64,000 nt of DNA from Bryobacteraceae bacterium (lineage in GTDB: Bacteria > Acidobacteriota > Terriglobia > Bryobacterales > Bryobacteraceae): positions 1-64,000 of the forward strand of contig JARKOC010000371.1 of assembly GCA_029975915.1 (NCBI GenBank), in the 5' to 3' direction. The position numbers and the translations under genes are program-made. Below are positions 6,291 to 55,310 of this stretch, piece after piece. Below the pieces are notes generated by a model that saw nothing but the letters and a program-made list of their open reading frames with translations, had not been told where the DNA came from and did not search any database. Position 1 is the stretch's first letter. Each line of letters begins with the position of its first letter.

Positions 6291-9041
6291 ATGAAACCTA
6301 TAGGCTTCAAACCCGAATCCGCTCACGACATTTTCAAACACGACGTATTTAAACGTGAGGCACACCCGCTCGATCCGTTCTTCACCCCGAAGAATGTGGC
6401 CATGATCGGCGCCACAGAGAATCCTGGCAGCGTTGGCCGCACGACCATGTGGAACCTCATGAGCACCCCGTTCGGCGGCGCCATCTTTCCCGTGAATCCA
6501 AAACGCCAGAGCGTGCTCGGCATCAAGGCGTACCCGACCGTGAAGGACATTCCGGCCGCGGTGGACCTGGCTGTGATCACAACGCCTGCCAAGTTCATTC
6601 CGGGGATTGTCCGCGAATGCGGCGAGGCGGGCATCACAGCCGCAGTGGTCATCTCGGCCGGGTTCAAGGAAGCCGGCGATGAAGGCAAGCGCTTGGAGAG
6701 AGAACTCCTTGCCGAAGCCGCGAAGGCGAATATGCGGATCATCGGGCCGAACTGTCTGGGTGTCATGGTTCCGCCGAGCGGATTGAATGCAACCTTCGCC
6801 GCGTGCATGGCGAGGCCAGGCAATGTCGGATTCCTGTCGCAATCCGGCGCACTGTGCACGGCAGTGCTGGACTGGTCGATGCGCGAGATGGTCGGATTCT
6901 CTGCGTTCATGAGTTTGGGTTCGATGGCCGATGTGGGTTGGGGCGACCTGATCTACTACCTGGGAAACGATCCAAAGACGCGGTCGATCCTGATCTACAT
7001 GGAGTCGGTTGGCGATGCACGGAGTTTCCTGTCGGCAGCGCGCGAGGTGGCGATGAACAAGCCCATCATCGTCATCAAGGCAGGCAGGACGGCGGCAGGG
7101 TCGAAGGCGGCGGCCTCGCATACGGGATCGCTGACTGGTTCGGACGACGTTCTGGACGTGGCGTTCATGAGGTCCGGCGTGCTCCGGGTGAACAACATTT
7201 CGGACCTGTTCTATATGGCCGAGGTCCTAGCCAAACAGCCACGCCCGAAGGGGCCGCGGTTGACAATCCTGACCAATGCGGGCGGTCCGGGCGTTCTGGC
7301 GGCGGATGCCCTATTGCTGGGCGGCGGCGAACTGGCGGATATCTCAGACCAGACCATCGAAGAGATGAACAAATTTCTTCCTGCCTCCTGGAGCCACTCG
7401 AATCCAATCGACATCATTGGCGATGCGGGCCCGGAGCGCTATGCCAAGGCGCTCGAAGTGGCGGCGAAGGATCCGAATTCGGACGGCATGCTCGTCATCC
7501 TGACTCCTCAGGCCATGACAGACGCCACTCAGACCGCAGAGCACCTGAAGCCATACGCGAAACTGGGTGACAAGCCTGTGCTGGCTTCTTGGATGGGCGG
7601 AACCGATGTCGCGGCCGGAGAGCAGATTCTCAACAATGCCGGCATCCCAACCTACGCCTACCCCGACACCGCCGCCAGGCTGTACAACTACATGTGGCAG
7701 TACGCAAAGAACGTGAACGCCCTCTACGAGACGCCGCGTTATGGCGGCTCCACCGAGGCTGACGACAGAGAAGCCGCGGCGGCCATCGTTGAAAAGGTGC
7801 GCAAGACGGGACGCACGATTCTAACCGAGCACGAGTCCAAGCAGGTACTCGCGGCCTACGGCATTCCAACGCTGCCTTCGGTGATCGCCACCAGCGCCGC
7901 CGCTGCGGTGGAGGCGGCTGCCGGAATGGGCTATCCGGTCGTGCTCAAGCTTCATTCCGAGACAATCACCCATAAAACAGACGTCGGCGGCGTAGTGTTG
8001 AACCTGAAGGATGCGGCGGCCGTCGAGGCGGCATTCGAATCGATCCGTGCATCCGTGGCAGCCAAAGTGGGCGCGGAACATTTTGGCGGCGTGAACGTGC
8101 AGCCTTTCGCGAAACTCGACGGCTACGAAGTGATCGTAGGCAGTTCAGTCGATCCCCAGTTCGGCCCGGTGATGCTTTTCGGCATGGGCGGTCAACTGGT
8201 CGAGGTGTTCAAAGACCGCTCCCTGGCGTTGCCGCCCCTAAACACGACGCTGGCCCGGCGCTTGATGGAACGGACCAAGATCTACACCGCGTTGAAAGGG
8301 GTGCGTGGCCGCAAACCGGTGGACCTCGCCGCGCTTGAACAATTGCTGGTTCGCTTCAGCCTGCTTGTCGTCGACCACCCCTGGATCAAGGAGATTGACA
8401 TTAACCCGCTACTAGCGTCGCCCGAAAGACTGCTGGCCCTTGATGCTCGCGTGGTCCTGCATGATCCGTCGACGCCCGAGTCCGAGTTGCCCCGGCCTTC
8501 CATCCGTCCGTACCCGGTCCAGTATGAATCAGAGTGGACGATGAAGAATGGCGAGACCGTCTTGATTCGTCCTATCCGTCCGGAGGACGAACCCATGCTC
8601 GTGAAGTTCCACCAGGCGCTTTCCGAGCGGACCGTATATCAGCGTTATCTCCAAATGCTGAATCTCAGTCAGCGGATCGCGCACGAGCGTCTGACCCGGA
8701 TCTGTTTCATCGACTACGCCCGGCAGATGGCGCTCGTCGTTGAACGCGAAGTGCCCGGCACAGGCGAGAAGGAAGTGATCGCCGTGGCGCGGCTGCAAGG
8801 CCTCTCCGGAGCCACTGGTTCCGAATTTGCCATCGTTGTCACCGACGAACATCAGAAGACTGGCCTTGGCACTGAACTGCTGAGGCGGCTCATCGAGATC
8901 GGCCGGGCGGAAGGCGTGAAGGTGATCACCGCCGATATCCTGGCGGAAAACACCGCTATGCAGAAAGTAAGCGAGAAACTCGGGTTCAAACTGACCCGTG
9001 AGCCAGGCGATCCGGTGGTTTCGGCCAGACTCGAATTGTAG
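6291..9041 (+). CDS. Acyl-CoA synthetase (ADP-forming) fused to GNAT acetyltransferase (Pat-like)
   Basis: A 916-residue fusion. In order: a CoA-binding Rossmann domain (about 25-150), succinyl-CoA-synthetase-like domains (about 150-470), an ATP-grasp domain (about 500-720, with [11 protein letters not shown]) and a C-terminal GNAT domain from residue 751 ([16 protein letters not shown]; acetyl-CoA site near [10 protein letters not shown]). This architecture matches the Pat/YfiQ protein lysine acetyltransferases, which acetylate acetyl-CoA synthetase. In enterobacterial Pat the synthetase part is reported to have lost the phospho-histidine. Here His277 sits in [11 protein letters not shown], as in active ADP-forming acetate-CoA ligases. 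It could therefore be an enzyme, a regulator or both. The gene is divergent from the fucosidase gene. Confidence 0.88.
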
Positions 9042-49030: not shown

Positions 49031-49558
49031 TTACTTTTTCACGGGGTAGGCGGCATCGTATGCCGCCGTGACGTCCGCTGAGATGTCAAAGGTCGGTCTG
49101 ACGAAAAGAGTAGACTGTGCATCGACCACCACATCCAACGTCTTCGTCTCGGCCACCTTTTTCACGATCTCTTGCAGGCGCTGGCCAACGCGGTTGAGAA
49201 TGTCCTGTCGCTCCCGATTCACTTCATCTTGCAGCGCCTGAGCATTGCGCTGGTACTGGCGCTGGCGGGTCTGGATCCGGGCGGCGAGGTCGGCCAGTGC
49301 GGCTTCTGTGTACTTTGTTTGGTTGGCCTCATAGTCTTGTTGCATTTTGGCCAGTTCCTTTTCCGTGGCAGCCAATTCGTCCTGGCGGGGGCCGAAGCGG
49401 GCTTTGAGGTCAGCTTCCGCTTGCTTGATTTCCGCTGTGCCCTGAAGGACTTTCTGCAGGTCCACCACGCCAACTTTTATCTGCGCACTGGCGGCGCCGG
49501 CGGCAACCAGTAAGGCAGCGGCCAGCAGGAAAGGCCGCATCAGTTTTTTACTCATCAT
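49031..49558 (-). CDS. skp: OmpH/Skp family periplasmic chaperone
   Basis: A 175-residue chaperone for unfolded outer-membrane proteins. A signal peptide (FLLAAALLVAAGAASA) is followed by IKVGVVDLQKVLQGTAE and a long coiled coil (about 45-130) forming the Skp tentacles. Two Met codons in tandem (49558, 49555) follow GGAG; the second is slightly better spaced. Its leader is about 210 nt if the promoter at 49778-49807 is used. The 3.2-kb mobile element lies just upstream of that promoter. Confidence 0.88.
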   Translation of the reverse strand: MMSKKLMRPFLLAAALLVAAGAASAQIKVGVVDLQKVLQGTAEIKQAEADLKARFGPRQDELAATEKELAKMQQDYEANQTKYTEAALADLAARIQTRQRQYQRNAQALQDEVNRERQDILNRVGQRLQEIVKKVAETKTLDVVVDAQSTLFVRPTFDISADVTAAYDAAYPVKK

Positions 49559-49777: not shown

Positions 49778-49807
49778 ATTGTAGGGACCCTGAGGAACCA
49801 CTGTCAA
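49778..49807 (-). promoter_or_regulatory. Near-consensus promoter toward skp, next to the insertion site
   Basis: On the minus strand TTGACA (49802-49807) and TACAAT (49778-49783) are 18 bp apart. Three bases of the -35 box fall in the 8-bp target duplication (49805-49812). The 210-nt leader includes a strong dyad at 49655-49671 (CGGCCAAC-C-GTTGGCCG). The element did not destroy the promoter but replaced everything upstream of it. Confidence 0.6.
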
Positions 49808-49812
49808 TCCAG
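49805..49812. repeat. Target-site duplication, left copy (CAATCCAG)
   Basis: Exact 8-bp copy of 52994-53001, directly outside the left terminal repeat. It shows that the element inserted as a unit, and 8-9 bp is the size made by IS1-family transposases. Confidence 0.8.
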
Positions 49813-49836
49813 GGTAGTGTCCTAAGGGTGCGTTGA
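49813..49836. repeat. Left terminal inverted repeat
   Basis: Begins GGTAGTGTCCTAA (49813-49825), then GGG, then TGCGTTGA (49829-49836). It matches the reverse complement of 52970-52993 at 21 of 24 positions. Confidence 0.82.
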
Positions 49837-49855
49837 GGGTGCTGATGGAATCTTC

Positions 49856-49884
49856 TTGCGTAGTGGCGTGTAAGTTCTTATACT
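49856..49884 (+). promoter_or_regulatory. Promoter of the dcd/dut-like gene
   Basis: TTGCGT (49856-49861) and TATACT (49879-49884) are 17 bp apart. The palindrome TCGTCATGACGA (49884-49895) overlaps the expected transcript start, a place where a repressor would act. The leader to the ATG at 49994 is about 100 nt. Confidence 0.5.
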
Positions 49885-49993
49885 CGTCATGACGAAACAA
49901 ATCTTGCGTATCCTATTTTGGGCGTGGGGTGGTAGAATCCAGTCTGTCGCCCCCGCCTCCCCCGTAGATTCGCCATAGTGCGCTGGAGGAGAA

Positions 49994-50674
49994 ATGATTC
50001 TCACTGACAGACAGATCCTGGAAGCACATCGCTCTAGAGAAATCGTTATAGAACCGTTCGCGGCAGAGCAGATCCAAGGAGCAACGTACGATCTGCGGGT
50101 TGGCGATCAAGGTGCGACCACGAGCGGAAAGCGTGTTGTCAACCTAAAGGAAGCAGGCTTCATTAGTATTCAACCAGGTGACTTCGCTGTCCTAACAGTG
50201 CTTGAAATTATTCGCCTGGGTCCTCAGTTTGTGGGGCGCTTCGGACTTCGATCAAAGTTCGCCAGGAAGGGCCTCATTGCTACCACGGGGCCTCAGATTG
50301 ATCCTGGTTTCCATGGACGGCTCATCATTGGGATCACGAATCTCTCGCCAAGGCCGGTGTCGCTCTCTCATGGCGACGATTTTGTCTCGCTTGAGATCCA
50401 CAAACTGGAAGAAGCCTCGACGAAGCCTTACTCTGGCCCCTATCAGGACAAGGTGTCCCTGGGTCCAGACGAGATTGAGTCAATAACCGAGAGCGAGGGA
50501 ATGGCTCTATCTGAAATGCTCACAAGCCTCCGCGTTCTCACTCAGAACGTCGGGACGCTGGCGAGTGATGTGACCACTCTGACAACGGAAATGAAGTCGC
50601 TGAAGTTCTGGGTACCCTTCATCGTAACAATCGGGTTTGCGATTCTCAGCATCCTTGTTGCTTTCAAGAACTAG
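49994..50674 (+). CDS. dCTP-deaminase/dUTPase-fold protein with C-terminal membrane anchor
   Basis: A 226-residue protein. Residues 1-140 follow dCTP deaminase (MILTDRQILEAHRS; ATYDLRVGD; GLRSKFARKGL with Arg86, Ser87 and Arg91 of the phosphate site; GPQIDPGFHGRL). The Glu that deaminates dCTP (in VLEF of E. coli Dcd) is Gly113 here (LIIGITN), so dCTP deamination is unlikely; Asp103 could serve a dUTPase reaction. Residues 160-204 are a coiled-coil-like stalk and 205-224 a transmembrane helix, absent from the known enzymes. GGAGGAG gives the start. It is a plus-strand passenger convergent with the transposase. Confidence 0.8.
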   Translation: MILTDRQILEAHRSREIVIEPFAAEQIQGATYDLRVGDQGATTSGKRVVNLKEAGFISIQPGDFAVLTVLEIIRLGPQFVGRFGLRSKFARKGLIATTGPQIDPGFHGRLIIGITNLSPRPVSLSHGDDFVSLEIHKLEEASTKPYSGPYQDKVSLGPDEIESITESEGMALSEMLTSLRVLTQNVGTLASDVTTLTTEMKSLKFWVPFIVTIGFAILSILVAFKN

Positions 50675-50693
50675 ATCGCATACTGCGCTAGAA

Positions 50694-51662
50694 TCAGGCC
50701 CTTGTCAGTAGATCGCGTAGACTCCAGATATCGTTGACAAGCCCAGTCTCCATAGCGGGCGTGACCCTCAGTGACTTATGGACGCGGCAGAAGTTGTAAT
50801 AGGCGAAGTGCAGGCAGAGCGCGGCCCACAGGTTCTCCCACTTCTTTGAGAAGGCATTCGTCAGCCGCGTGAGGCGGCGGATCTGCATGCGCATCGTCAA
50901 GTTTTGACGCTCCACGATAGACGTGCAGATGCGCTTCGGGTCGGGATCGCCCAACACTGGCACGGCCTCCGTATCGACCACATCAGCCGGTGAGTATCGC
51001 GCCTCACCTTCACGCGGGGCCGCGTAGACCTTGATGAGTTGGGCGAAGTCAACGCGGTCAGATAGCGTGTAGTCGATGGCGTTTCGGTAGGGCGCGAAGC
51101 CGTCAGTTGTGATCTGGAACCGCTGAGGCGAGGTAGCGAGGCGCAGCCCTTCGATGAAAATGCTTGTGGTGGCTTGGTTGCGCCGTCCAAGTGCGAAGTT
51201 CAGAACCAGCTTCGTGTTGCGCTCGATGGCGACGAAGCAATAGGCGTCTCCGATGGCCTCATTGTGTTGCTCGTGCGGGAGCTTGCGCCCTTCCTTCTTT
51301 GCGACGTAGCCCCATATCTCATCGCACTCCACATCCTTGACAGGGATGTGGACGATCAACCGTGCCATTAGCCGTTCGGAGCGCTCACCTGCAAGCACCA
51401 GAAGCCTTAGGATCGTATCGCGGTGAAGGCCGGTAATTCGCTCCGTTGTGCGGACGCTGGAGCCTTCCAGGAGCAATTGCAGCGCAAGGACGGCCTTGTC
51501 TATCGGGATGAGCATATCTCCCAAGGGCCGCTCATGCGCTTCGGTGTAGGTCTTGCCACAGTCCGGGCAACGGAAGCGCTGCAAGCCGTTGCGATGCTTG
51601 CCGAAACGGCGGCACTCCACCTTACAGGTGGTGCAGGTCATCGTGATGGCTTCCGTCTTCAT
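50694..51662 (-). CDS. IS1-like family transposase
   Basis: A 322-residue single-frame transposase combining InsA- and InsB-like parts. The N-terminus has a zinc ribbon (CTTCKVECRRFGKHRNGLQRFRCPDCGKTY) and a helix-turn-helix (SSVRTTERITGLHRDTILRLL). The catalytic core shows DEIWGYVAKKEG, ITTDGFAPYRNAI and the final SIVERQNLTMRMQIRRLTRLTNAFS. The frame is open a few codons upstream, but ATG 51662 lies right after the TTGACA/TATTCT promoter. It is intact, so the element may still be active. Confidence 0.9.
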   Translation of the reverse strand: MKTEAITMTCTTCKVECRRFGKHRNGLQRFRCPDCGKTYTEAHERPLGDMLIPIDKAVLALQLLLEGSSVRTTERITGLHRDTILRLLVLAGERSERLMARLIVHIPVKDVECDEIWGYVAKKEGRKLPHEQHNEAIGDAYCFVAIERNTKLVLNFALGRRNQATTSIFIEGLRLATSPQRFQITTDGFAPYRNAIDYTLSDRVDFAQLIKVYAAPREGEARYSPADVVDTEAVPVLGDPDPKRICTSIVERQNLTMRMQIRRLTRLTNAFSKKWENLWAALCLHFAYYNFCRVHKSLRVTPAMETGLVNDIWSLRDLLTRA

Positions 51663-51668
51663 ACACCT

Positions 51669-51697
51669 AGAATACAGCAAGCGCTTGCTGTTGTCAA
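51669..51697 (-). promoter_or_regulatory. Transposase promoter with perfect palindromic operator
   Basis: On the minus strand TTGACA (51692-51697) and TATTCT (51669-51674) are exactly 17 bp apart. The spacer is filled by a perfect 18-bp palindrome, ACAGCAAGCGCTTGCTGT (51674-51691). A protein bound there would block RNA polymerase, a usual way to keep transposase low. The ATG follows 6 bases after the -10 box, so the mRNA may be leaderless. Confidence 0.65.
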
Positions 51698-51727
51698 TTC
51701 TTTTGTTCTGGTGCTTTCCAAATAGTC

Positions 51728-51754
51728 AGGGCCAGCGGCGAAACCGCTGGCCCT
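51728..51754. terminator. Hairpin separating the HARE-HTH gene from the transposase
   Basis: AGGGCCAGCGG and CCGCTGGCCCT form a perfect 11-bp stem with loop CGAAA. It lies 25 bases after the HARE-HTH stop on the minus strand and upstream of the transposase promoter. The T run is poor. Confidence 0.6.
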
Positions 51755-51779
51755 TGATCGTAACGGGATTGCCGTTAGG

Positions 51780-52205
51780 CTATGCGACTTCCTGTAATGG
51801 CCCTTGGTTGGGCCGGGTCTTCCACTCCGGCAAGCCGAAGGTGCTAGGCCCAAACTTGTCAACCCGGCGAGCCTTCACTTTGGCGATGTGACGGTTTAAC
51901 CCCGGCTCAATCGTGGTGCGCCGCACTTCACTACCCCTGAGTGCCGATAGGCGTTCGGCAATCACCGTGATATGCAACGGGCTCCCCTCTGCTCGTAGGA
52001 TATCAACGATATCGTCAAACTTATCACGCTCACGGCTTGGGGCTACTGCGCCAGTCGTCACCATCGACGTTCGAGCTGCATGGGGGAGTTGCACTGAGCC
52101 GGAGAGCTTCGAGATCATCTCTCGCAACTGCTCCTCAACTTCATTCAAGGCGGCACGCTGTGAATCAACCTCTGCCAATGCTTCTTGGAGTTTCGTAAGG
52201 ATCAT
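51780..52205 (-). CDS. HARE-HTH domain protein
   Basis: A 141-residue protein. Residues 1-35 form a coiled coil (ILTKLQEALAEVDSQRAALNEVEEQLREMI), 36-60 are a linker, and 62-127 match the HARE-HTH winged helix: KFDDIVDILRAEGSPLHITVIAERL, then RRTTIEPGLNRHIAKV, then the closing KFGPSTFGLPEW. HARE-HTH domains occur in RNA polymerase delta subunits, restriction enzymes and chromatin proteins, and are thought to recognise particular DNA features. Here it is the best candidate for binding the element's palindromes. GAGGG precedes the ATG at 52205. Confidence 0.72.
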   Translation of the reverse strand: MILTKLQEALAEVDSQRAALNEVEEQLREMISKLSGSVQLPHAARTSMVTTGAVAPSRERDKFDDIVDILRAEGSPLHITVIAERLSALRGSEVRRTTIEPGLNRHIAKVKARRVDKFGPSTFGLPEWKTRPNQGPLQEVA

Positions 52206-52268
52206 TGTACCCTCCGGTCTTTTACCGTTGACAACATCGCACAGATCAATACTACAATCATCGCAGGA

Positions 52269-52294
52269 TGGGGATGGGCGGCAACCCACCCCCA
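52269..52294 (-). terminator. Hairpin after the 42-residue ORF
   Basis: TGGGGATGGG pairs with CCCACCCCCA (9 of 10) around a 6-nt loop. On the minus strand it follows the stop of the small ORF at 52305. There is no T run, so this is tentative. Confidence 0.35.
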
Positions 52295-52304
52295 CCCTGA
52301 GGTT

Positions 52305-52433
52305 TCAGCTTAGGAGCGCCCATGGCTCCAGCGTGACCTCGTAGGAGCCGTCGGCAAGCTGGCGGATCGAAACGATCCTAAAGCCTTTCGGCGGGACATA
52401 CGCGACAACAGTAGGAACGACTACAGTAGTCAT
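52305..52433 (-). CDS. 42-residue ORF inside the mobile element
   Basis: This short frame reads MTTVVVPTVVAYVPP then KGFRIVSIRQLADGSYEVTL and ends EPWALLS. A GGAGG sequence lies 11 bases upstream of the ATG, a little far but strong. The composition (a hydrophobic beta-like start, then a DGSYEVTLEP strand-turn-strand) is not random-looking, which supports translation. No function can be given; an adaptor, antitoxin or leader peptide are all possible. It is on the same strand as the other minus-strand passengers. Confidence 0.5.
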   Translation of the reverse strand: MTTVVVPTVVAYVPPKGFRIVSIRQLADGSYEVTLEPWALLS

Positions 52434-52470
52434 AGAGGAAGAAACCTCCTTTCTCGCACCAAGCGATAGA

Positions 52471-52492
52471 AGCTCAGGCTGTAACCTGGGCT
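52471..52492. other. Hairpin upstream of the 42-residue ORF
   Basis: AGCTCAGG and CCTGGGCT form an 8-bp stem with one wobble and a 6-nt loop. On the plus strand it is followed by TTCTCCTTTTT, as a terminator would be, but no plus-strand gene ends nearby. On the minus strand it would sit in the leader of the 42-residue ORF. Confidence 0.35.
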
Positions 52493-52587
52493 TTCTCCTT
52501 TTTGGAGCGCCCGTTCACCCCACCAAGAAGAACATGCCTTCCATCTCTCGGTTACGAGAAACCCTACACCCACAAGCATAGACTGGA

Positions 52588-52614
52588 AATGATCCCAATG
52601 CAAACGGGATCATT
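52588..52614 (-). terminator. Terminator-like hairpin after the basic-protein gene
   Basis: AATGATCCC and GGGATCATT form a perfect 9-bp stem with a 9-nt loop. On the minus strand it lies 19 bases after the stop at 52633 and is followed by TTTCC. Confidence 0.5.
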
Positions 52615-52632
52615 GTTGGGTCTACTAACGAT

Positions 52633-52917
52633 TCAAGCCGAAGCGGTTCTTTTCGGTCTTCCCCCCGCCCGCGTCTTCCGCATGGCCGCGATCTTGGCGA
52701 AGTACTCAGGCCCGCGCTTCGCCGTCTTCGCGCCACCCTTGGCCCCGAGCGCTGCGGCTGGCTTCGCTTGACTGAGGTTGTCGGCCAGGGCCAGCGCAGC
52801 CGTTAGAAGCTCGACGGCGCGGGCCGTGCGGCCTTGCGGCAGGTCTGCCGTCTCGACTGTCAGTTTCGCTTCGTGGATGAGAGCGTAGAGCGCCTTGATG
52901 TCCGATGGTTCAGCCAT
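52633..52917 (-). CDS. Small protein with basic C-terminal tail, passenger gene
   Basis: A 94-residue protein. Residues 1-50 are helical (ALYALIHEAKLTVETADLPQGRTARAVELLTAALALADNL); residues 55-94 are rich in Lys, Arg, Ala and Gly and end in KRGPEYFAKIAAMRKTRAGG then RPKRTASA, in the style of an AT-hook or nucleic-acid-binding tail. The ATG at 52917 is preferred; an in-frame ATG lies six codons upstream. The near-palindrome at 52948-52963 lies 31 bases upstream, matching the operator of the transposase promoter. Confidence 0.55.
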   Translation of the reverse strand: MAEPSDIKALYALIHEAKLTVETADLPQGRTARAVELLTAALALADNLSQAKPAAALGAKGGAKTAKRGPEYFAKIAAMRKTRAGGRPKRTASA

Positions 52918-52947
52918 GTTTCTAGGATGCGCCACGCTGAATCTAGA

Positions 52948-52963
52948 AGCAAGCGGTTGCTGT
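52948..52963 (-). promoter_or_regulatory. Second copy of the element's palindromic site
   Basis: AGCAAGCGGTTGCTGT matches 15 of 16 bases of the palindrome core at 51676-51691. CTAGAA also flanks both copies on the same side. On the minus strand a TTGAAG box and TTCTAG box surround it at 19 bp spacing. It is upstream of the basic-protein gene at the right end. Confidence 0.5.
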
Positions 52964-52969
52964 TTGGCT

Positions 52970-52993
52970 TCAACGCAGGATTAGGACACTACC
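52970..52993. repeat. Right terminal inverted repeat
   Basis: Reads TCAACGCA (52970-52977), AGGA-type divergent bases, then TTAGGACACTACC (52981-52993). It is the inverted partner of 49813-49836. Confidence 0.82.
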
Positions 52994-53001
52994 CAATCCA
53001 G
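52994..53001. repeat. Target-site duplication, right copy (CAATCCAG)
   Basis: Exact 8-bp copy of 49805-49812, directly outside the right terminal repeat. The rebuilt empty site would read ACTGT-CAATCCAG-GCAGAAC. Confidence 0.8.
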
Positions 53002-53075: not shown

Positions 53076-55310
53076 CTATTGCACGGTCTTCCGGGGCCTG
53101 ATGGTGAACACGAAGGCGACCAGAACCGCTGCTCCAAGGGCAAAAAGAGCGTCCCCGGGGCCGCGCAGCCAACGCAGAGTCTGCATGTGGTCCTGCTGCA
53201 TGAACTCAGTCGATCTGGCGTACCAGTATCCGTTTTCCACACTGGCCCATGTCTGAAGCAGCCCCACCGGGAGCAGGCTGAGGACGCACATCGCGAGCAG
53301 GCCTATGTTCATGGACCAAAAGGAGAATTTAAGCCATCCCTCACGCCACTTCTGCTCTGGATTGAGCGCTCGGAGACAGACCAGCATCAATCCGATGCCG
53401 AGCATGCCATAGACGCCAAACAAAGCGGCGTGGCCGTGGAGCGGGGTGGTGTTTAGTCCCTGCATGAAATAGAGCGCGATCGGCGGGTTGATCATGAAAC
53501 CAAACAAACCAGCGCCGACCATGTTCCAGAACGCGACCGCAACGAAGAAATACACAGGCCACTTGTAGCGCACGGCCCAAGCGGCCGAACGCCCGCGGCG
53601 CAGGTCCTCGATGGCGGAATAAGCCACCAGAGTCAGCGGAACCACCTCCAGTGCGCTAAACACCGCGCCCCAAGCCATGGCAAGCGTCGGGGTGCCAGAC
53701 CAGTAGAGGTGGTGGCAGGTCCCGATGATGCCGCCCGCGAGATAGATCGTCGCCGACAATAGCGCTCCTTGAGCCGCCAGCTTTGGGCGGATCAGGCCCA
53801 AGCGCATGAAGAAGAAGGCGATGACGGCCGTGGCGAACACCTCGAAGAACCCTTCCACCCAGAGGTGGACAACCCACCATCGCCAATACTCGACAATCGA
53901 GATGTGAGTATGGTGCCCCCAAGTGAGGCCGGCGCCGTAGAAGAGCCCGATGGCAGCCGCGGACATCAGGAAAAGCCCGAGAAGCGGCTTCTGCTCACTT
54001 CGTTTGGTCAATGCGGGGCTCGGCGCCAGCGCTGGACGGACCGAGCGGACCACAAGAAACAGCCAGATGAACAACCCGGCGAACAGCAGCCACTGCCAGC
54101 CACGACCGAGATCGACATATTCATACCCTTGATGGCCCCAGTAGAACGACTGTGAGTCGCTCAACTTATTCATAATGCTCATCCACTCGCCGGTCAGCGA
54201 CCCGGCGACGATCAACAGCAACGCGCCAAACAGCACGTTCACCAGCAGGCTTTGCAGCTTGGGTTCCTTGCCGCTGACCAGCGGGCCAATAAACAGCCCG
54301 GCGGCGAGCCAGGCGGTAGCGATCCAGAAGATGCCGAGCTGGACGTGCCAGGTGCGAGTGACCGAATAAGGCAGGATTTCGGCAAGTTTAATGCCGTAGA
54401 AGCCATCTCCCTCGACGCCGTAGTGAACTGTGATAATACCGACGGCGATCTGAACCAAGATCAGCGCGGCCACCACCCAGAAGTACTTCAGCGTCGCCAG
54501 TTGACTTGCGGTCGGCAGCCAGGAGCCGAGGGGGTCAGAGGATGGAATCAGGCTTTTGTCTTCCGGCTCATGCCTCTGTGAGGCGTACCACCAGACCAGG
54601 GCACAGATGCCACCCAGCAACATGATGATGCTGACACCCGTCCACATGACGGTGTCGCCGGTGGGGCGATTGCCGATGAGCGGTTCGTGTGGCCAGTTGC
54701 CGGTATATGTAACCGTGTCGTCCGGACGGTTCGTTGAAGCCGACCAGGCCGTCCACCAAACAAAGGCCGATAGGGCCCTGGCCCGCTCCGGATCGGCTAC
54801 GGAGCCAGGCGGGATGGCGTACTCGGCTTTGCCGTCCCTGAACACACCGGAGTAATAAGCAGAGTTGCTCGCAATCGCGTCCGCTCTGACCGGATCGATT
54901 GTGATTGTGCCGCTTGCCGGCGTGTAAGTATTGGCCTTGTACAGAGACGTCAACCTTCCTTGGAGCGCGGCCTTCTGCTCGGCGGACAATTGCTCGTACG
55001 GCTTGCCGTGGTCATTTTGCGCCCAGCGCGACAGAACGAACACCAATTCCCGATGCAGCCAGTCCGCAGTCCAGTCGGGTGCGACATAGCTGCCATGGCC
55101 CCAGATCGAGCCCACTTGCATGCCGCCCATCGACTGCCAGACGTTCTGGCCCTTCTCGATGAGGCCGGCTTCGAAAACAGTTTGGCCGGTACTGGTGACC
55201 ACCGACGACGGAATTGGCGGCTTTTCCTGATAGATACGGGTTCCAATCCATCCCAGGACCCCGAATGACAAGATTAGGACCGCTGCGAAGCTCCACCACA
55301 ATCGTTTCAT
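53076..55310 (-). CDS. norB: Quinol-dependent nitric oxide reductase (qNorB)
   Basis: A 744-residue single-subunit NO reductase, which reduces 2 NO to N2O with electrons from quinol in the cytoplasmic membrane. The long N-terminal segment (about 30-220, cytochrome-c-like fold without heme motif) marks the quinol type rather than the cNor pair. The twelve-helix catalytic part has HVQLGIFWIATAWLAAGLF, HLWVEGFFEVFAT (FeB His plus Glu), GTCHHLYWSG (the two further His) and HGHAALFGVYG (heme). No NorR, NsrR or DNR gene is close. Detoxification is more likely than full denitrification, as no other denitrification gene is here. Confidence 0.95.
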   Translation of the reverse strand: MKRLWWSFAAVLILSFGVLGWIGTRIYQEKPPIPSSVVTSTGQTVFEAGLIEKGQNVWQSMGGMQVGSIWGHGSYVAPDWTADWLHRELVFVLSRWAQNDHGKPYEQLSAEQKAALQGRLTSLYKANTYTPASGTITIDPVRADAIASNSAYYSGVFRDGKAEYAIPPGSVADPERARALSAFVWWTAWSASTNRPDDTVTYTGNWPHEPLIGNRPTGDTVMWTGVSIIMLLGGICALVWWYASQRHEPEDKSLIPSSDPLGSWLPTASQLATLKYFWVVAALILVQIAVGIITVHYGVEGDGFYGIKLAEILPYSVTRTWHVQLGIFWIATAWLAAGLFIGPLVSGKEPKLQSLLVNVLFGALLLIVAGSLTGEWMSIMNKLSDSQSFYWGHQGYEYVDLGRGWQWLLFAGLFIWLFLVVRSVRPALAPSPALTKRSEQKPLLGLFLMSAAAIGLFYGAGLTWGHHTHISIVEYWRWWVVHLWVEGFFEVFATAVIAFFFMRLGLIRPKLAAQGALLSATIYLAGGIIGTCHHLYWSGTPTLAMAWGAVFSALEVVPLTLVAYSAIEDLRRGRSAAWAVRYKWPVYFFVAVAFWNMVGAGLFGFMINPPIALYFMQGLNTTPLHGHAALFGVYGMLGIGLMLVCLRALNPEQKWREGWLKFSFWSMNIGLLAMCVLSLLPVGLLQTWASVENGYWYARSTEFMQQDHMQTLRWLRGPGDALFALGAAVLVAFVFTIRPRKTVQ

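Follow-up and report, generated by a model that had tools for sequence, protein, structure and literature searches.

The present study analyzes an element at positions 49813-52993 (3181 bp) of a 64,000-nucleotide stretch of DNA from a Bryobacteraceae bacterium (contig JARKOC010000371.1; the whole stretch is called the window here), where it lies between a norB and an ompH gene. Patterns detected are consistent with a single passenger-carrying insertion sequence (IS) with an IS1-related transposase, a small basic companion protein and further cargo, an arrangement that an earlier note, made from the sequence alone, had described in part. Five open frames within it are worth considering, and the features from left to right are as follows.

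49805..49812: left target-site duplication CAATCCAG, the same as 52994-53001
49813..49836, + strand: left terminal inverted repeat GGTAGTGTCCTAAGGGTGCGTTGA; the same end stands beside the same passenger in locus L047
49994..50674, + strand: 226-amino-acid passenger of dCTP-deaminase/dUTPase fold (DCD-type), with a C-terminal helix at residues 158-225, a hydrophobic segment at 206-224, and Gly113 in place of the deaminase Glu (from profiles, alignment and a structure model)
50694..51641, − strand: IS1-related transposase in a single open reading frame (ORF), 315 amino acids from ATG 51641, with a zinc finger and DD(63)E spacing (from profiles and alignment)
51780..52205, − strand: protein with a putative coiled coil (by eye) and a C-terminal helix-turn-helix (HTH), 141 amino acids from ATG 52205 (weak HARE-HTH match)
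52305..52433, − strand: open frame of 42 amino acids with no family match, a doubtful gene
52633..52935, − strand: basic protein of 100 amino acids reading inward from the right end, with the C-terminal pattern GxxGGxxTAxRGxxYxxxxxxxRKxxxGGR (from homologues and alignment)
52970..52993, − strand: right terminal inverted repeat GGTAGTGTCCTAATCCTGCGTTGA, read on the − strand inward from 52993
52994..53001: right target-site duplication CAATCCAG

The two ends, compared on opposite strands, are alike at 21 of 24 positions (a run of 13, three that differ, then a run of eight), and the same 8 bp, CAATCCAG, lie directly outside both, which confirms the inverted ends and the exact duplication as first described. 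When up to two mismatches were allowed, the 13-mer GGTAGTGTCCTAA matched twice in the window, both times exactly and both times at an end of the element, against a chance expectation of 0.38 matches. Two host genes flank the insertion, outside the element.

49031..49558, − strand: OmpH/Skp-like gene (profile match; synteny)
53076..55310, − strand: NorB-type nitric oxide reductase gene (profile match; 86% identity in genome G535)

A search for the norB-type flank covered 399 genomes from the class to which G001 belongs, the Bryobacterales (Acidobacteriota) genome that holds locus L047, and 58 of them matched at E ≤ 1e-200, with the best identity in G535. Four norB regions were fetched, and that of G535 has the window's next genes in the same order (OmpH at 83% identity and the following gene at 70%) with the element absent. 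Joining the window's flanks with one copy of CAATCCAG kept gave 88 of 124 columns identical to G535 at the junction, 14 of the columns being gaps, and the match continues through AACCACTGTCAAT, after which a few bases differ. The duplication and the empty site, taken together, would be read straightforwardly as an insertion of all 3181 bp along with a single copy of CAATCCAG, so that mobility of the whole unit, as the earlier note had it, is well supported. The empty site is supported by one relative, since only one of the four fetched regions keeps ompH adjoining.

The combination of this passenger and this end recurs in a second genome. At L047 the end and the bases just inside it recur, followed by a DCD-type gene with 90% amino acid identity to that of the window, and counted from the first base of the end 689 of 834 bases (83%) are identical inside, versus 32 of 100 bases outside. 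The other end of the L047 element is not visible because the contig stops inside the passenger. Comparison of the two passenger genes gave a nonsynonymous rate (dN) of 0.044 and a synonymous rate (dS) of 0.964 by NG86 (ratio about 0.05), and 0.045 and 0.770 by YN00 (about 0.06), suggesting purifying selection on the passenger. Because the passenger moves with the ends at L047, the element is a passenger-carrying IS, i.e. a transporter IS.

The ends recur well beyond these two genomes. The exact 21-base pattern GGTAGTGTCCTAANNNTGCGTTGA was found in nine viral stretches and in 56 genome stretches, all 56 of which carry titles of Acidobacteriota lineages (membership was checked for four title names, Acidicapsa, Sulfotelmatobacter, Bryobacterales and Terriglobales), and the expectation of relatives in this phylum is thus borne out. 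Allowing up to three mismatches, 40 genomes gave 147 matches versus 12 for a reversed control pattern; these genomes had been brought in through such loci, and at least one match in each is by construction. Over all fetched loci, facing ends more than 150 bp apart (the minimum of the pair finder) and flanked by an exact 8-bp duplication, 9-bp in one case, made up 28 rows, or 24 non-redundant elements 311-3847 bp long, no two of which share a duplication: the window's own, one on a viral contig (L001) and 22 in genomes. The loci had been selected by their ends, not by duplications, and five shifted offsets used as a control together gave one row. Copies with the same boundaries and different duplications had been named as proof of mobility, and what was found are elements with ends of the same type and differing duplications, with no second complete copy of the same passenger set. 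Below the finder's minimum, a mini-element of 46 bp (L027:188-233) consists of little more than two facing ends and has an 8-bp duplication, GTTTTTCA.

It could be argued that the window holds a plain IS1-like element and host genes caught between two solo ends of separate elements, with the duplication arising by chance. Derivatives the size of miniature inverted-repeat transposable elements and unpaired ends are indeed common in the fetched loci, but this explanation would not account for an exact duplication at both ends together with an empty site, for 24 duplicated elements against a single control row, or for two ends agreeing at 21 of 24 positions, and the L047 copy also disfavours it. 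We regard it as highly improbable and retain the reading of a single mobile unit.

The transposase start at ATG 51641 was chosen by comparison with relatives; the open frame itself starts at TTG 51680 and gives 328 amino acids. The protein scored 30.3 bits against PF03400, above the cut-off of 24.1, and 85.4 bits against NF033558, below the cut-off of 100. Target duplications in IS1 are 8-9 bp, and IS1 family ends follow the rule GGnnnTG; the window has GGTAGTG and 8 bp. With E. coli IS1A it shares PF03400, a zinc finger, GGTxxTG ends, the 8-bp duplication and, following the catalytic Glu, a comparable ERxNLxxR block. Unlike IS1A, it has a single frame of 315-328 amino acids in place of the two ORFs insA and insB, DD(63)E rather than DD(24)E spacing, and a length of 3.2 kb with passengers, and over aligned columns its transposase is 29% identical to E. 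coli InsB. For the intact IS1-like transposase of the earlier note the profile evidence is mixed, with one score above and one below its cut-off, and the single ORF and the spacing set it apart from classical IS1. The longer spacing is not peculiar to the window: the D-to-E motif search succeeded in 14 of 19 rows, the window among them, and gave 62-65 residues, versus 24 in InsB, and the zinc-finger pattern is present in 12 of those 14. Phylogenetic analysis of 20 transposase rows grouped the window with eight others, seven from Acidobacteriota and one from a viral contig (support 96/95), with InsB on a very long branch. The Acidobacteriota elements L014, L029, L035 and L141 fall outside the group, so the tree does not show the elements of this phylum to be monophyletic. 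At thresholds up to E 1 the window's transposase matched neither of the IS1595-type domains PF12760 and PF12762, whereas the transposase pieces of L067, an element considered below, match both. The IS1 family of ISfinder includes a long single-ORF subgroup, the ISMhu11 group, which is a candidate placement for the element, and a literature search for ISMhu11 found no paper.

The passenger at 49994-50674 had been taken for a membrane-anchored gene of dCTP-deaminase/dUTPase fold, and the fold and the C-terminal hydrophobic segment stand, but it lacks the deaminase Glu and the dUTPase type is likelier than dCTP deaminase. Its structure model (mean predicted local distance difference test score, pLDDT, 87) is closest among solved structures to 9ln0, dUTPase P45, and 8y1w, the dUTPase of Thermococcus pacificus, with template modelling (TM) scores to the target of 0.91-0.92, and both are 34-35% identical to it. 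Like these archaeal-type DCD-fold dUTPases, which have Met at the deaminase-Glu position, it has no Glu there; Gly113 aligns with the Glu of the solved deaminases 4xjc and 2qxx and is invariant in 25 aligned DCD-type sequences, chosen from 120 matches listed. The catalytic glutamate in question is E138 in E. coli dCTP deaminase, and E138A/D entries are present among the structure matches listed. Chains of 9ln0 and 8y1w have about 155 residues and are without the long C-terminal helix of the window protein and the hydrophobic segment at its end (residues 206-224, mean hydropathy 2.4). Given Gly113, nearest structures titled dUTPase and the C-terminal hydrophobic segment, the passenger is probably a membrane-tethered protein of dUTPase type, as predicted from the alignment and model.

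Alternatively, it could genuinely deaminate dCTP and act against phages by raising dUTP or depleting dCTP. This would be consistent with the score of 101.7 bits against the dCTP deaminase equivalog TIGR02274 (cut-off 92.8), with the depositors' molecule name for 9ln0 and 8y1w, which is dCTP deaminase in entries titled dUTPase, and with the thymidylate kinases that other elements carry. The invariant Gly113 and the Met in the nearest, dUTPase-titled structures argue against it, as does the lack of any PADLOC match, and we consider it unlikely. Defence dCTP deaminases are known as anti-phage effectors, and their fold differs from the DCD type.

Relatives of the predicted dUTPase-type passenger appear in other settings. 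At E ≤ 1e-10 a DCD-type gene was found in three of the 19 genomes reached via loci (L047's own, G013 at 65% and G016 at 28%), and relatives at 64% amino acid identity ride on other mobile DNA, at L067, L066 and L068. A search for ends of the GGTAGTGT type around the DCD-type loci L066, L068 and L070 found no flanked pair. The L067 relative sits in a 3.6-kb element (L067:5874-9442) with CGGCATTAGGTAGCAAACTCACCTA ends, an 8-bp duplication GAAATATC and an IS1595-type transposase in pieces, and by eye this element is placed between HNH-like and terminase-like frames of a phage contig. The gene in L066 is on a contig with a match to Mu Gp27; L068, by eye a Mu-like phage contig, has a gene order that, also by eye, is similar, and there a PDC-S42 candidate defence protein (6709-7602) adjoins the DCD-type gene. 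In L070, from G013, the gene lies beside genes that by eye resemble a toxin-antitoxin pair.

The small basic protein at 52633-52935 had been listed among the passengers; it is real and conserved, and rather than incidental cargo it appears to be a recurrent companion of the ends. Relatives occur in 17 of 66 sources compared, window included (two of them, L004 and L007, being the same DNA), and 13 other aligned proteins are 46-57% identical to that of the window and share its glycine/lysine/arginine-rich C-terminal motif. Eight of the 12 duplicated elements longer than 2 kb have it, reading inward from an end (the window, L014, L016+L065, L029, L038, L048, L162 and L166). In the 399-genome sample of the class it was found in 36 genomes at E ≤ 1e-8. 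From 14 matches of at least 80 bits 11 loci were fetched, nine of which have an end with up to four mismatches beside the gene; since four of the 11 (L174-L177) had earlier been brought in by their ends, the fair count is five of the seven loci new to the sample. A protein database yielded 2190 homologues among 7996 candidates scored, with no Pfam domain among the 120 matches listed, where those homologues that have a name are called "hypothetical". AlphaFold2 gave three helices with a mean pLDDT of 73 and a predicted TM-score of 0.37, too weak for a claim about the fold.

Instead of acting in transposition, the basic protein could be ordinary cargo, namely a glycine/lysine-rich protein for nucleic-acid binding or stress. 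It is missing from some elements, its C-terminal part alone matches within longer frames elsewhere, and P63C cargo proteins have, by eye, a comparable glycine-rich stretch at their start; against this, its place and inward direction beside one end are constant while the cargo varies. On balance we think ordinary cargo rather unlikely, though less so than a deaminase role for the DCD-type protein, and favour a companion role.

The two remaining frames add less. The HTH frame opens at GTG 52295 (171 amino acids) and had been called a HARE-HTH gene, for which the match is weak, at 16.8 bits (E 0.0089) against a cut-off of 25.9. The 42-residue ORF is there as an open frame only. Grouping coiled-coil/HTH-like cargo proteins into one family was unsupported, with E values of 0.18 or worse in the two pairs compared.

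Taken together, 49813-52993 is very probably one intact-looking passenger-carrying IS whose transposase moves the unit, with a basic companion and exchangeable cargo. Direct support comes from its structure and duplication, from the relative that lacks the insert, from the second genome in which this passenger again follows this end, and from the differing cargo of related elements. An IS1-related single-ORF DD(63)E transposase would recognize the 24-bp GGTAGTGTCCTAANNNTGCGTTGA ends and would have placed the complete 3.2-kb unit in the intergenic region between norB and ompH, where 8 bp were duplicated. Beside the right end, the small basic protein probably binds DNA, at the ends or the target, and may help or control transposition. 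The remainder would be exchangeable cargo, here a putatively membrane-tethered dUTPase-type protein of DCD fold under purifying selection, which may hydrolyze dUTP at the membrane and may serve in conflict of the host with phages or mobile elements.

Several observations weigh against this reading. The empty site depends on a single relative, where precise loss is a formal alternative, and no other complete element with this passenger set turned up, L047 being cut by its contig end. End pairs without an exact duplication occur at L003/L005, L015, L031, L058, L061, L002+L006, L135 and L141. The basic protein is missing from four of the 12 duplicated elements longer than 2 kb (L142, L043, L035 and L025) and so is not strictly needed. 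In a 396-genome sample of the phylum, a DCD-type gene was found at E ≤ 1e-40 in G001 and in none of the 395 others; with only this already-known centre matching, the gene is rare cargo in the phylum. Comparison with 65 other sources gave no homologue of either the HTH protein or the 42-residue ORF.

Transporter ISs are known in print, as passages of PMC3129680, PMC7986276 and PMC9330008 indicate, and were described with the IS1595 family (Siguier et al. 2009, as cited in a passage of PMC3129680). As in those, the element has a single transposase gene enclosed by terminal inverted repeats and a flanking target duplication, and the ends and transposase enclose genes unrelated to transposition that move as one unit, judging from the empty site in one relative, from L047, where one end is seen, and from the 24 elements. 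This supports the suggestion that the element is a transporter form whose transposase is of IS1 type. Another likeness to IS1595-family transporter ISs is that the L067 element carries a relative of the same DCD-type passenger; unlike them, the window has an IS1-type transposase, a recurrent basic companion, and an exact end pattern that among genome contigs occurs only under Acidobacteriota titles. In kind the element is a transporter IS, and in lineage it belongs to an IS1-related group that departs from classical IS1 in two features. A literature search covering titles and the beginnings of abstracts, with ISfinder and most subscription papers outside its scope, listed no title on such elements.

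Cargo differs widely among the sister elements. Among the 12 duplicated elements longer than 2 kb, 10 have a full-length transposase frame, L142 has a piece only and L016+L065 has none. The cargo of these elements includes a ClpP-like protein (L014), an IrrE/M78 peptidase with SocA-Panacea (L029), NYN (L016), P63C proteins (L035, and L142 at 52% identity to that of L035), and in L025 a thymidylate kinase with an AAA-like protein just under its cut-off; further elements carry cargo without family assignment. A second thymidylate kinase, 61% alike to that of L025, is in the shorter element L139, and L003 (no exact duplication) and L048 have transposases 81% identical with different cargo. Both thymidylate-kinase-like proteins (L025:2114-2911, L139:1589-2323) have a cysteine-containing C-terminal tail. 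Cargo of the P63C type recurs across element subgroups (L035:1403-2470, L142:1131-2156, L097:3885-4889) with a glycine-rich, KGG-like start by eye. At L022:1653-3003 (1351 bp) a protein with HATPase and DUF4325 matches lies between ends with an exact 8-bp duplication, with no detected transposase; this is perhaps a mobile cassette dependent on others.

A role of the passengers in defence or host conflict had been proposed, and a few sister cargo genes make it plausible through matches to defence models, while the window's own passengers match none. The L029 peptidase matched RmrA (1e-77, model positions 126-336 of 397), L097 a Type II methyltransferase (1e-63; in Pfam a DNA methylase with an Mrr-like domain) and L031 PDC-S42 (1e-16). 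Of these only L029 is among the 24 elements; L031 has no exact duplication, and L097 has an exact duplication with a related but different end. The PADLOC scan covered 46 of 87 frames, picked by eye, and matched 89 families (25 shown), many being redundant models for one protein. Four window proteins (DCD-type, transposase, HTH and basic) had no PADLOC match up to E 0.01. From the sister cargo we infer that defence may be one of the uses to which such cargo is put.

A wider and more tentative possibility, to which we give somewhat less than even credence, is that the element belongs to an extensive group of cargo transposons derived from IS1, for the most part without annotation, whose centre is in Acidobacteriota and whose cousins sit on plasmids of Alphaproteobacteria and on phage contigs. 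Such a group may act as a small shuttle for host-conflict genes, with a dedicated companion protein at one end and free swapping of cargo; the window's cargo would be a new membrane-tethered dUTPase effector with relatives in an IS1595-type element and Mu-like prophages. IS1 is textbook minimal mobile DNA, and here, in Acidobacteriota, transposases of IS1 type appear to move cargo transposons 2-4 kb long. Their 24-bp end offers a simple handle for collecting cargo, and thereby a route to candidate conflict genes possibly outside defence islands. Two protein families come into view as well: that of the companion, with no Pfam domain among the matches listed, and a predicted membrane-tethered family of dUTPase type, relatives of which turn up repeatedly on mobile DNA of other kinds. 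With its recurring companion gene, its breadth and its cargo, the element deserves specialist attention.

Cousins with GGTAGTG... ends and exact 8-bp duplications include plasmid elements of Hoeflea (L205, 4224 bp) and Mesorhizobium (L207, 3370 bp), delimited here, and on viral contigs they go down to 1505 bp. Besides these ends and duplications, the two long plasmid elements share with the window passengers beside a transposase, annotated there as IS1 family; they differ in the inner end sequence, CAGTTTGAA, and in a transposase 36-37% identical to that of the window. On an Acidiphilium plasmid (L206:3965-5685), where no such end pair was found, a related IS1-type transposase lies beside a RES/Xre toxin-antitoxin pair.

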